A stretch of 64,000 bases of DNA. It comes from a virus. Position 1 is the first letter of the stretch. Each line of letters opens with the position of its first letter. The position numbers were made by a program, and so were the translations under genes. A model generated the notes under the pieces. The model worked only from the letters and a program-made list of their open reading frames with translations. It was not told the DNA's origin and did not search any database. The stretch covers positions 28,925 to 92,924 of the IMG/VR virus record IMGVR_UViG_3300047554_000329; one strand, written 5' to 3'. Below, piece after piece: positions 28,664 through 47,183 of the stretch.

Positions 28664-28971
28664 TGGCTGAACGCAAAGACCGAATGGCTTTGCTTTCTCG
28701 TTACGCAAAGCTTCACACTAAACACTATGAAGAACGAGTAACACTCAACCTTAACGTTGAGCAGTGGGCTGCAGACGCTCTGATTGAATCCTATGGTTTA
28801 CCAGAATGCTATGACCTATTAGAGTATTACTTTTCAGTTAGCCAGACTCCAACTTGGAAATACTTTGCTAACTATGCAGACAAAATTATAGATGCTAGAG
28901 AGCAGCTACAGCAAGACATTAAAGAAAGAGCAGAACGTAGGGCGAAAGCCAAGGAGTGGTTAAATGACTAA
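28663..28971 (+). CDS. Small helical protein, possible helicase accessory
   Basis: The 102-residue protein is largely helical and basic at its C-terminus (KERAERRAKAKEWLND). It overlaps the helicase start by 8 nt and is translated just before it, which suggests partnership, perhaps as a loader or inhibitor. No AAA motif is present, so it is not a DnaC-type ATPase. Function inferred only from context. Confidence 0.6.
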   Translation: MAERKDRMALLSRYAKLHTKHYEERVTLNLNVEQWAADALIESYGLPECYDLLEYYFSVSQTPTWKYFANYADKIIDAREQLQQDIKERAERRAKAKEWLND

Positions 28972-42168: not shown

Positions 42169-42336
42169 ATGGTCAATCGTAATCTGCAGCCATTCCATAT
42201 GCGTGAAAGCCAGCACTTACATTTACGAAGACCTAGAAACCTGCTCAAAAGCCAAAGAAAACTAAGCCCTACAAGATACGATAGACAAAGTAGGATGGCT
42301 CCTAATAATCAAAATCAAAACTTATCTTACCAATGA
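42169..42336 (+). CDS. Possible small basic protein (uncertain)
   Basis: A 55-residue frame starting MVNRNLQPFHMRES fills most of the gap between terminase and the PA14 gene. It is rich in Arg, Gln, Asn and His and lacks the Val/Ala/Glu balance of neighbouring genes, and it has no ribosome binding site. It may be spurious or a leader peptide. I list it because the gap is otherwise empty and a promoter lies directly upstream. Confidence 0.25.
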   Translation: MVNRNLQPFHMRESQHLHLRRPRNLLKSQRKLSPTRYDRQSRMAPNNQNQNLSYQ

Positions 42337-42380
42337 TGATATAATGGTACTGTTGGGGAACTTCCCAACTAGGAGAAGGG
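42337..42380 (+). promoter_or_regulatory. Extended -10 promoter (TGATATAAT) and leader hairpin for PA14 gene
   Basis: TGATATAAT (42337-42345) is followed by a leader with the inverted repeat GTTGGG/CCCAAC and AGGAG at 42371-42375, 9 nt before the ATT start at 42385. Confidence 0.55.
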
Positions 42381-42384
42381 AAAA

Positions 42385-44793
42385 ATTAAAAAACTTTTAT
42401 ACTCAGGGCTAGTCATGTTGCTAGCTTTAACCCCACTGATTATGGCTCAACCAGCACTTGGAATAACCAAGGCTGAGTACGAGGCACTCCTCGCTGCAGC
42501 CCAAGCAAAGGTAGCTGCTGCTCAGGTAGAGTTACAGCAAGAACAAACACAGCTAGAAGACCTCACAACGTCACAACTTGGCGTAGAAACCTCTCTAGAA
42601 CAGGCACAGCAAGACCTAGAGGACGCACAGCAAGCCCTAAACATTGCAATTATGGACAACAACGACCAGGGTCAAAGAGTGCTTGAGGCGACGCAGAGGC
42701 TTGCAGAGGCAAGAACTTTGGTAGAGCAAAAACAGTCTGAAATAGAAAACATTTCTCAAAGTATTCTTGACCAGTCTGCGGTAGTCACACAATCGTCATT
42801 AGAACTAGATGAAGCTAGACAAGCAATGGACCTATCACTATCTAATCTGATTAATTCGCAAGAGTCGCTTAACCAACTAAACAATACTAAAGCACAATAC
42901 GAAGAAGAGTTTAGTCTTGCAACAACAGAATATAACCTAGCATTGTTAAATTATAATCTTTCTGTAGATAGCGTTCACACCACAGGACAAACCCTTGAAA
43001 CAAAGTCAAACAATTATAATCAGGCTTTGGCAACATTGCAGCAAAAGCTAGATGCTCTGACACAGGCACAGGCTCAGGTAGATGTGGCACAATACAACTA
43101 CAATAATAATCTTATTGCTGTATATCCAGCAAATACAGTACCCAGAATTCCTGGGCTTAGGGCAGATATCTATAAGCAGATTAGTAGCCCAAACCCAATT
43201 AGGTCAGATACAGCATATACATTCTGTAAAACAATTACAGTTACCCACATCAACATGGACTGGGGTGGCGGAGACATTGAAGGCTGTGGTGGAGATTACG
43301 TTATGATTCACTATAGGGGATATATAACTGTGCCCGAAACTAAGAATTACGAATTCTTGGCAATGGTTGACGACGGATGGTACATGACAATCGGTGGAAC
43401 AGTTGTAAACAACAACTGGTATACCAAAGGATGTGGTGGTAACTGGAGTAACGGAATTGACCTACAGGCAGGAGTATCTTACGAGCTTGATGCATGGATG
43501 TTTGAGTGGGGCGGTGGAGCCTGTAATTTTCTTTACTATTACACCAACACAAACTGGGGAGTAGTTCCAGCATCATGGTATTCGCAAAACCAAGCTACAC
43601 AGCCTACATATGAATATGACCCAGCACTTCTAGCAATCCTACAAGCAAAACAAGCATTGCTAAATACAGCACAGTCGGAATACACTCTTGCACTTGCAAC
43701 AGCCAACTCAGCAAGCGAAGAGTACTCCAACGCAATCAATGATTATGACGCAGCAGTTATCTCATGGCAAGAAAAGCAGGAACAGCTAGAGGTAGCAGAA
43801 CAAAACAAGATAGATAAGAATCTTAGCGTAACTACTATGGAGTCTTTAGTTGCTAGAGCAGAACAAACACTACAACAGCTTCAAGTTACCTACCAGCAGA
43901 AGGAGTTGGAGTTTTTGCAAAAAGAAGCGTTGCTGCTCACTAACCGACAAGAACTCATAGACTTAAGAAACAGTTTTGACAATATACAGGTTATAATTGA
44001 TAATAGTATTACTACAGTTGCACAACTACAAGATGCTCTAGATGCAGAGGCGGTAAAGAAACAGCAAACAGAGCTGACCGTACAACAGCAAGAGACATCA
44101 GTATCAAATAATACACAGCTGGCAAATCTGGTCAGGCTTGAACTACAGGCAGTTACACAAAAAGTATTTACACAAACAAAACTAATTGAAAATAAACAAA
44201 AAACTCTAGCAAATGCTCTAAAAGAATTGGAAAACATTCCTGTCTATGAAGAGCCAGAGCCTACCCCAACCCCAGAACCAACAGAAGAGCCAAAGCCTGA
44301 ACCAGAACCAACCCCTAAGCCAACTGGTGACCCAAACATTCCAGAGGTTATTAAGGACCTAACTAAGATTGACCTAGAGGCGGTAGCAGCAACAAATCTA
44401 ACAGAAGCACAGGTAGAACAGCTTACAGAAGCAGCAATGGAAACATTTAAAACTGCAGAGCAAGGCTCACCAGAATATGAACAGGCTCTTGATGCCTTAT
44501 TCGTAGTAGCCCAAGCAGACGACATTGTAGTAAATGAAGAGCTAGCAGCTGTACCAGTTCTTGGAGCAACAGTTGTAGCACTTACAGATGCAATTAACTT
44601 TATTGGTAACGTTGGAGCAGATATGTCTCCACAAGTTAGAGAAAAATCGGAAAAGGTTGTTGTAACAGCAGTTGTTGCTGTTGGAGCAGCCGTAAATGCA
44701 GCGACAGGGGCAGCACTTTCAGCAGCAGCACCTGCAGCAGCAGCTGGAGCACCATCAGGTGGCTCAGGCGGAACAACAAGAAGGAGGATATAA
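42385..44793 (+). CDS. Secreted, likely membrane-anchored PA14/coiled-coil surface protein
   Basis: Read from ATT 42385, the protein (802 residues) begins MKKLLYSGLVMLLALTPLIM, a typical Sec signal peptide with probable cleavage after PALG. Then follow: coiled coil (about 30-240), a PA14 sugar-binding domain (about 253-393, GLRADIY start, Cys-rich NWSNGIDLQAGVSYELDAW), a second coiled coil (405-610), a Pro/Glu/Thr-rich spacer (622-654) and an Ala/Val-rich hydrophobic helix (about 757-790) followed by RRR. The only start compatible with AGGAG spacing and the signal peptide is ATT; ATG 42415 would remove the lysines. This layout suggests export and anchoring in the infected cell's envelope rather than in the virion. 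Holin-like genes follow. Confidence 0.7.
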   Translation: MKKLLYSGLVMLLALTPLIMAQPALGITKAEYEALLAAAQAKVAAAQVELQQEQTQLEDLTTSQLGVETSLEQAQQDLEDAQQALNIAIMDNNDQGQRVLEATQRLAEARTLVEQKQSEIENISQSILDQSAVVTQSSLELDEARQAMDLSLSNLINSQESLNQLNNTKAQYEEEFSLATTEYNLALLNYNLSVDSVHTTGQTLETKSNNYNQALATLQQKLDALTQAQAQVDVAQYNYNNNLIAVYPANTVPRIPGLRADIYKQISSPNPIRSDTAYTFCKTITVTHINMDWGGGDIEGCGGDYVMIHYRGYITVPETKNYEFLAMVDDGWYMTIGGTVVNNNWYTKGCGGNWSNGIDLQAGVSYELDAWMFEWGGGACNFLYYYTNTNWGVVPASWYSQNQATQPTYEYDPALLAILQAKQALLNTAQSEYTLALATANSASEEYSNAINDYDAAVISWQEKQEQLEVAEQNKIDKNLSVTTMESLVARAEQTLQQLQVTYQQKELEFLQKEALLLTNRQELIDLRNSFDNIQVIIDNSITTVAQLQDALDAEAVKKQQTELTVQQQETSVSNNTQLANLVRLELQAVTQKVFTQTKLIENKQKTLANALKELENIPVYEEPEPTPTPEPTEEPKPEPEPTPKPTGDPNIPEVIKDLTKIDLEAVAATNLTEAQVEQLTEAAMETFKTAEQGSPEYEQALDALFVVAQADDIVVNEELAAVPVLGATVVALTDAINFIGNVGADMSPQVREKSEKVVVTAVVAVGAAVNAATGAALSAAAPAAAAGAPSGGSGGTTRRRI

Positions 44794-44794
44794 C

Positions 44795-44974
44795 ATGAAG
44801 AAATTTTTAAATGATATGCTTGGACAAGCTTGGACACTCCTTGGTATGTTTGTTGCCTGGCTTGTCCTTGAAGGGTCAGCAAAAGATGTAGTAGGATGGG
44901 CAATCGTAGGAACAACAGTCCTATGGGTAATTACCTATCCACTCAGAAATTCTGCAGAAAAGGAGGAAGAATAA
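44795..44974 (+). CDS. Small two-helix membrane protein, holin-like
   Basis: ATG 44795, with AAGGAGG at 44781-44787, gives 59 residues. Two hydrophobic helices (AWTLLGMFVAWLVLEG and VVGWAIVGTTVLWVITY) flank a short loop, and the C-terminus is charged (RNSAEKEEE). This is the layout of class II holins that time lysis. It is followed 1 nt later by a second membrane protein. A holin or antiholin role is inferred from topology and position. Confidence 0.6.
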   Translation: MKKFLNDMLGQAWTLLGMFVAWLVLEGSAKDVVGWAIVGTTVLWVITYPLRNSAEKEEE

Positions 44975-44975
44975 T

Positions 44976-45248
44976 ATGGAAGAAGAATATGGCGTAACAG
45001 GTGGCTGGGCTACCCTTAAGAACGTTCTTTGGAGAATCCTTGCTGTTTTTGCAGCATCAGGTCTAAGCGTACTTGGTGCAGGTGCTATTGTTGGAGTTGA
45101 GTTGCTATCAGCAGTGTTTATGGCAGGTATCATCGGTGTCGCTACAGTAGTAGAGCGACTAGCACGAGCATTCCTTGACGACGGTAAGCTAGACATGGAT
45201 GAAATCAATGCAGCGTTTGCCAAGGTAGACAAGAACGACGGAAATTAA
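44976..45248 (+). CDS. Holin-like membrane protein
   Basis: The 90-residue protein has two predicted membrane segments (LWRILAVFAASGLSVLGAGAI and ELLSAVFMAGIIGVATVV) and a soluble acidic C-terminal tail with an EF-hand-like acidic spacing (DDGKLDMDEINAAFAKVD). It is co-transcribed with the preceding small membrane protein. Together they resemble a holin and a partner. The acidic tail could bind divalent cations, but this is speculative. Followed by a terminator that also contains a promoter. Confidence 0.6.
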   Translation: MEEEYGVTGGWATLKNVLWRILAVFAASGLSVLGAGAIVGVELLSAVFMAGIIGVATVVERLARAFLDDGKLDMDEINAAFAKVDKNDGN

Positions 45249-45256
45249 TCTCCTAG

Positions 45257-45285
45257 TTGACAGCCCTCTCTAGATGATGTATAAT
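45257..45285 (+). promoter_or_regulatory. Consensus promoter TTGACA-17-TATAAT, nested in terminator
   Basis: TTGACA (45257-45262) and TATAAT (45280-45285) are exactly consensus with 17 nt spacing. The -10 lies in the loop of the hairpin 45264-45306. Confidence 0.8.
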
Positions 45286-45313
45286 GTATATACAACCTAG
45301 AGAGGGTTTTCTT
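45264..45313 (+). terminator. Intrinsic terminator whose loop holds a promoter
   Basis: CCCTCTCTAG (45264-45273) pairs with CTAGAGAGGG (45297-45306), followed by TTTTCTT. It should stop transcripts from the holin genes. The right arm also contains the ribosome binding site of the next gene. Confidence 0.7.
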
Positions 45314-46532: not shown

Positions 46533-47183
46533 ATGGCAAAAACACAATGGGCAATTGATGGCACATTTGGCAAGACCTTTAAGATTACTTCTCCATTTGG
46601 TTGGAGAGTAGACCCACTAGGTCGTGCTCCAAAGAAGCATCACAACGGCATGGACCTATGGGGTGCTGCAGAAGTGATTTACGTAGAGGCTTTCCACGAT
46701 GGAAAGGTTCTATTTGCTGGACCATCAAAGCGTAGAAAAGAAGATGGTAGCGTAGGTGGCTTTGGTTACCACGTTATTGTGCAACACAAGATTAACGGCA
46801 AGTTTTACACTTCCTGTTACGCTCACCTTAGAGAAGGCTCTCTAAAGGTTAAGGCTGGACAGAAGGTTACTGCTGGAACTGTTCTTGGTGTTATGGGAAC
46901 TACTGGTGACTCAACTGGTAAGCACCTACACTGGGAAATTTGGCAGGGTAAGACCCACGGTTGGTCTGCTGATGGCAAGGGTTTCGTAGACCCATTTGAG
47001 TTTGTAAAGGCTCTTATTCTTAAGGAACGTGCTGAAGCAGCAGGTAAGGACGCAACTCCTGACGATGCTCCAGTGGCAAAGGCTCCTGTACATGGCACTG
47101 CTCCAAAGGCAAAGCCAGCTGCAAAGCCTGTAGCACCAGTTGCTAAGAAGCCAGCACCAAAGACAGCACCGAAGGCACAGTAA
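46533..47183 (+). CDS. Endolysin, M23 metallopeptidase
   Basis: The 216-residue protein contains a LytM/M23 domain that cleaves peptide bonds in peptidoglycan. Zinc ligands appear in KKHHNGMDLW (His and Asp, near residue 35) and GKHLHWEIW (HxH, near 130), with the strand CYAHLREGSLKVKAGQKV between. There is no signal peptide, so export through a holin is expected. The C-terminal 45 residues are Lys/Ala/Pro repeats, like histone H1 tails, which may bind the acidic wall. Its start has an AAGGAGG site. Confidence 0.88.
   Translation: MAKTQWAIDGTFGKTFKITSPFGWRVDPLGRAPKKHHNGMDLWGAAEVIYVEAFHDGKVLFAGPSKRRKEDGSVGGFGYHVIVQHKINGKFYTSCYAHLREGSLKVKAGQKVTAGTVLGVMGTTGDSTGKHLHWEIWQGKTHGWSADGKGFVDPFEFVKALILKERAEAAGKDATPDDAPVAKAPVHGTAPKAKPAAKPVAPVAKKPAPKTAPKAQ

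Follow-up and report, generated by a model that had tools for sequence, protein, structure and literature searches.

A weak start codon, mostly AUU, appears to be kept under selection in a surface-protein gene of actinophage-like viruses

To our knowledge, the well-described non-AUG starts in bacteria amount to a few single cases, and infC, pcnB, sigR, and ccpN are already known examples of single bacterial genes under such control. The infC gene starts with AUU in Escherichia coli, with AUC in Streptomyces (ATC in the gene, PMC5472188), and with AUA in Staphylococcus aureus. In E. coli pcnB, an AUU codon limits the amount of protein (cited in PMC13009471). The S. aureus sites of cvfC1 (AUU) and of ccpN and citZ (AUA) give about 10% of the output of an AUG reporter in poor medium, and extended Shine-Dalgarno motifs are present in cvfC1 and ccpN (PMC13009471). 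In Streptomyces, the GTC start of sigR is repressed by IF3, so that SigR stays below its downstream partner (PMC5472188).

Gene 1 of the phage cassette described here shares features with each of these systems. It resembles infC in that an AUH codon (AUU, AUA, or AUC) is kept across relatives beside a strong ribosome site; infC, however, codes for the very factor by which its start codon is read, whereas the gene 1 product is a phage surface protein of the PA14/coiled-coil type, a different situation from the IF3 autoregulation of infC proper. With pcnB it would share the use of an AUU start to limit a protein, although pcnB encodes a bacterial enzyme, is not a phage gene, and has no covarying 5′ hairpin described in PMC13009471. 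The S. aureus genes cvfC1 and ccpN have, like gene 1, a strong or extended Shine-Dalgarno sequence and a conserved AUU or AUA codon, with an output below that of AUG, and cvfC1 is likewise the first gene of its operon (PMC13009471); both are bacterial regulators, whereas gene 1 has a 5′ hairpin in addition and shifts among ATT, ATA, ATC, CTG, and TTG. The IF3-repressed sigR offers an actinobacterial noncanonical start by which a first gene is kept below its downstream partner (PMC5472188), as would be the case for gene 1, but its codon is GTC and its product a chromosomal sigma factor. A phage lineage that keeps non-AUG control would be new, as far as the open literature shows; searches there brought up no family of phage genes in which an AUU start is conserved. 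Such a lineage supplies dozens of natural versions of a single initiation site: codon, spacing, and hairpin vary among them while the weak start is kept, so that comparison and one-base reporter changes can test why AUU would be retained in a gene. Gene finders of the standard kind accept only ATG, GTG, and TTG as starts; they would truncate the proteins of the whole gene 1 family, removing the signal peptide and hiding their surface-protein nature.

The window, by which we mean the whole stretch of 64,000 nucleotides analyzed, is part (positions 28,925 to 92,924) of the 92,924-base virus record IMGVR_UViG_3300047554_000329. Its terminase shares 54% identity with those of the Streptomyces phages Francob and Gilson, the latter of the family Stanwilliamsviridae, a kinship that points to an actinophage-like virus as the source. 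The features of the cassette, which comprises gene 1 and the downstream genes m1 and m2, are given in Table 1. At the start of gene 1, the in-frame stop codon TAG (42370–42372) is followed by AGGAG (42371–42375), 9 nt, ATT (42385–42387), and then KKLLYSGLVMLLALTPLIMAQPALG. The codons AAA AAA come right after the ATT and precede a hydrophobic stretch ending in PALG, and the frame is open from ATT 42385 to TAA 44791–44793. The initial annotation of this DNA had placed the TAG, the AGGAG, the 9-nt spacing, and ATT 42385 correctly, as re-reading of the sequence showed, and had stated that the in-frame stop leaves no other upstream start; indeed, no ATG, GTG, or TTG is present between 42370 and 42385. 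It did not include the extended −10 element, nor the hairpin between the −10 and AGGAG, that surround the start.

Table 1. Features of the gene 1 cassette and its leader, with positions in the window
Feature	Position	Strand	Basis
Extended −10 promoter element TGaTATAAT	42337..42345	+	sequence; TG.TATAAT kept in relatives
Hairpin GTTGGG/CCCAAC at the predicted mRNA 5′ end, abutting the Shine-Dalgarno	42352..42369	+	covariation, stability vs shuffles
Shine-Dalgarno AGGAG	42371..42375	+	sequence, conserved; duplex stronger than in ATG control genes
ATT, apparent start codon of gene 1	42385..42387	+	sequence and relatives
Gene 1, putative secreted membrane-anchored coiled-coil stalk with PA14 domain, 802 codons	42385..44793	+	
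Sec-type signal peptide: KK n-region, hydrophobic core, PALG end (PAFG/PAYA in relatives)	42385..42462	+	sequence, hydropathy
First long helix of predicted stalk, residues 28–240 of 801-aa query	42469..43107	+	AlphaFold2, pLDDT >90 mostly
PA14 domain (PF07691), E 7.6e-7	43243..43482	+	profile match
Second long helix of predicted stalk, residues 412–615	43621..44232	+	AlphaFold2, pLDDT >90 mostly
C-terminal hydrophobic helix, probable membrane anchor	44629..44724	+	sequence; low-confidence helix in AlphaFold2 model
m1, 59 aa, apparent small membrane protein, ATG start	44795..44974	+	conserved next gene, ATG in relatives
m2, 90 aa, apparent small membrane protein, ATG start	44976..45248	+	conserved, ATG in relatives; PHROG 26427

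Comparison with near relatives bears on where coding begins. Locus L002, whose protein is 94% identical, has ATT at the same place, and the L003 clade (66%) has ATA, all in separate metagenome assemblies; ATG, GTG, and TTG are found at the gene 1 start in none of these close relatives. The window and L002 agree in all 39 leader bases compared, and the window and L003 in 37 of 39. Substitutions between the window and L002 fall mainly on third codon positions (25/8/87 at positions 1/2/3 over 500 codons). A single base change would give ATG, and a sequencing error at 42385 had been named beforehand as what would overturn the ATT reading; many independent assemblies, those of the near relatives among them, have a non-ATG codon at this position, which refutes a sequencing or assembly error, and its probability is negligible. 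L002 has one base fewer between AGGAG and ATT, and the reading frame 3′ of the ATT is unchanged, as it should be if ATT is where coding starts. Another origin of the long frame would be translation from the upstream ATG 42344, followed by a −1 frameshift at A AAA AAC (42389–42395). The frame from ATG 42344 does reach this heptamer, which is a real slippery sequence, and a −1 shift there would enter the long frame. That frame, however, is destroyed in the relatives, where a stop arises before the heptamer through the 1-nt deletion in L002 and through the A of ATA in the other clade, and ATG 42344 itself sits in the −10 element, 5′ of the predicted transcript start. The frameshift is thus ruled out by L002 and L003, and we give it practically no weight.

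The wider phage group was covered by two sets of loci. A terminase-based scan yielded 80 loci, and in all those with the gene visible, the signal-peptide gene downstream of the terminase keeps one layout: a −10, a short hairpin, AAGGAG or similar, then ATT, ATA, or ATC (TTG once), mostly with AAA next. As this first set had partly been found by a search for AUH codons, a second scan was anchored on m2, which lies two genes downstream and makes the set blind to the start codon of gene 1. Counting by a fixed rule, with three loci taken by hand (L127, L137, and L198) and L146, L147, and L172 excluded because the gene stands there in another context, gave 49 nonredundant genes: ATT 24, TTG 16, ATC 3, ATA 2, CTG 2, ATG 2 (L174 and L198), and GTG 0. 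The codon is therefore non-ATG in 47 of the 49 and AUH or CTG in 31. By comparison, the other genes with a ribosome site in the same loci start with ATG in 383 cases, TTG in 79, and GTG in 60 (~73% ATG), a difference in ATG use with a Fisher p of ~1e-22 without correction for relatedness. Almost all m1 and m2 genes of the same cassettes use ATG (63 and 61 distinct cases, respectively), and the few non-ATG codons called for them look mostly like internal mis-picks. The m2 tree, whose resolution is limited, implies at least 18 changes of the start codon; ATG occurs at two tips only, and the clade of 15 rows around the window is entirely AUH. When 771 nonredundant long ORFs of related loci were screened for ATT, ATA, ATC, or CTG preceded by a site of at least 5 nt, with no upstream in-frame standard start, gene 1 alone was returned, which excludes chance.

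The noncanonical ATT of the window (neither ATG, GTG, nor TTG) has its counterpart, among the relatives, in 51 distinct genes of the family that start with ATT, ATA, or ATC. An upstream in-frame standard start is missing in 46 of them, and the first downstream one comes no earlier than the beginning of the hydrophobic core in 42 and only past the end of the core in 21, so that a standard start would cost part or all of the signal peptide. This distribution weighs against the view that translation begins at a downstream ATG, GTG, or TTG and that the KK residues are not made. In the window the candidate is ATG 42415, the first standard start 3′ of the ATT, which is located within the hydrophobic region and would leave a short hydrophobic N-terminus; the initial annotation had denied it a ribosome site, which is too strict, as a weak AGGG is present 6 nt 5′. 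The site is nevertheless unconserved, since the ATG shifts by one codon and the AGGG is lost in the next clade. Across the family, the first standard codon lies anywhere from 3 to 146 codons in, past the whole core in the 21 genes above, while the conserved parts are the strong Shine-Dalgarno site and the AUH codon. A downstream start is thus very improbable. Relatives with ATG had been expected to speak against an ATT start; such relatives do exist, but they are 2 of the 49, both distant, and no near relative is of this kind. The proposal that ATT 42385 is the start codon is well supported by its conservation in relatives and, on this comparative evidence, the ATT appears to be the real initiation codon of gene 1.

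The leader shows further conserved elements. The −10 is present 5′ of all 68 cassette starts examined, and transcription is predicted to start near 42352. In an alignment of 22 leaders, 81.8% of the cells of the hairpin are paired, against 25–44% for slid partners, and four of its six pairs show compensatory changes. The stem sequences differ across leaders (GTTGGG/CCCAAC, GTCGAA/TTCGAC, TTGTTAG/CTAACAA, and CAGAC/GTCTG), and most loci of the m2-anchored set also carry hairpins, of other sequence. Folded alone, the leaders are mostly more stable than shuffles (mean z −3.2, n = 32). For the 110 nt from 42351, the minimum-energy fold does not surpass that of shuffles, and the hairpin is evident only with the leader folded alone and by covariation. 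It was not seen in the subgroup L027, L042, L066, and L068. In the TTG genes of L160, L170, L177, L180, L188, and L197 the leader is short, with 28 nt between −10 and start, and lacks the hairpin; in these six cassettes, leader type and codon change together. The duplex of the Shine-Dalgarno with its anti-site has an energy of about −8 to −9 kcal/mol, compared with −5.9 in 357 ATG control genes (p 3e-11), which places a strong site beside a weak codon, as in start-codon-limited genes. A covariance model of the leader gives a strong match once per record, always before gene 1, whereas a search of the leader with the Rfam covariance models gave no match at E up to 1.

Taken as sequence evidence, these patterns indicate that the weak start of gene 1 is under selection. 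The gene is held across the phage group at a weak codon, mostly AUU and otherwise AUA, AUC, CUG, or UUG, and this weak start is kept along with a strong Shine-Dalgarno, a −10 of its own, and usually a 5′ hairpin. The class kept is that of weak starts, wider than ATT, as the 16 TTG genes among the 49 indicate. A contrary view is that the ATT has been passively inherited with a mobile module of leader and signal peptide, functionless, a better start merely not having arisen. Conservation of leader and signal peptide alongside replacement of the exposed middle part of the protein does fit this view. The codon, however, turns over often within the module (ATT, ATA, ATC, CTG, and TTG, with the changes counted above), and the sequence of the hairpin is swapped while its pairing stays. 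Moreover, a single base change would turn any of the observed codons into ATG, and yet ATG occurs in only 2 of the 49 genes, which points to selection against a strong start. Passive inheritance is therefore unlikely in our opinion. Selection for a weak start suggests that the phages deliberately hold back the amount of this surface protein; that the phage limits expression of an exported protein had been put forward in the initial annotation and is well supported by the conservation of the start codon. The alternative offered there, a host that tolerates AUU generally, is not borne out, as the other genes in the loci, and m1 and m2, use ATG.

The explanation as a whole, in which ATT is the true start, the weak codon and the strong site throttle gene 1, and m1 and m2 are in excess, has in our estimate a probability of about 0.75. 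A strong promoter with a consensus element would most likely drive one transcript for gene 1, m1, and m2, a sharing that we infer together with the transcript start. The 30S subunits would bind the strong Shine-Dalgarno and commit poorly on AUU, leaving little stalk protein; by analogy with the measured AUU/AUA sites of S. aureus, output could be around one-tenth of that of an AUG version, and m1 and m2, each with an ATG and its own strong site, would be made in excess. The hairpin would probably protect the 5′ end of the mRNA and keep the Shine-Dalgarno site open. By the same kind of analogy, IF3 may be the factor that rejects AUU complexes, and IF3 control of gene 1 is plausible. No IF3 gene (PF00707) was found above cut-off in 15 phage records, so that the host factor would be used, and no initiator tRNA is present among the six tRNAs of the window. 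IF3 does not reject TTG, a canonical start, and as TTG is the most common substitute, sensitivity to IF3 cannot be the only selected property; we argue that selection would act on low initiation itself, IF3 sensitivity being no more than one route to it. Against the whole explanation stand the hairpin-less TTG group, the two ATG relatives, and the ATG-start homolog of phage DSL-LC01 described below. It is also conceivable, although we find it rather unlikely, that promoter, hairpin, Shine-Dalgarno, and AUU form a phage-specific translational switch, in which ribosomes would be parked on the leader and the stalk translated only late in infection, upon a change in initiation fidelity (IF3 or initiator tRNA) or through a hairpin-binding factor.

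In the gene 1 product, two helices of ~200 residues flank the PA14 domain, and a proline-rich linker and the C-terminal hydrophobic helix are also present. The match to PF07691 scores 29.5 bits, above the gathering score of 24, and the domain is also found in the homologs of L076 and L061, though not in all cassette proteins. The middle of the protein varies between phages, PA14 being one variant, and a C-terminal domain is common to several. The AlphaFold2 model has a pTM of only 0.35, with the PA14 part at low confidence. Packed antiparallel, the two helices would make a stalk of ~30 nm with PA14 at its tip, a predicted length sufficient to cross the actinobacterial cell wall, and the C-terminal helix is the likely means of membrane anchoring. 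The product is thus probably a membrane-anchored, wall-spanning stalk that exposes a variable tip (PA14 in the window) at the surface of the infected cell. No relative of the protein was found in host genomes, and annotated phages gave only short local matches. Through an m2 relative, we reached an ATG-start homolog in the isolate Actinomycetia phage DSL-LC01 (L199, 8689–11523, −), annotated as hypothetical; its C-terminus continues into a fused membrane segment that resembles m1, and its layout is different.

Both m1 and m2 appear to encode small membrane proteins; PHROG 26427 labels the m2 family "nuclease", a doubtful label for what reads as a small membrane protein. A Peptidase M23 protein (PF01551, E 1.8e-20) is encoded at 46533–47183 (+), 1.3 kb 3′ of m2, and is a candidate endolysin or wall hydrolase. 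Its proximity makes a link of the cassette to lysis possible; the surface protein might also be displayed to exclude other phages. In the gap between the terminase and the promoter, an unannotated ORF at 42169–42336 (+) encodes a small basic protein of 55 aa, conserved in the L003 clade. At 45257–45306 (+), a perfect 12/12 sigma-70 promoter (TTGACA, 17, TATAAT) has its −10 between the arms of a 10-base inverted repeat (45264–45273/45297–45306) followed by a T run, so that promoter and terminator-like hairpin share one site.
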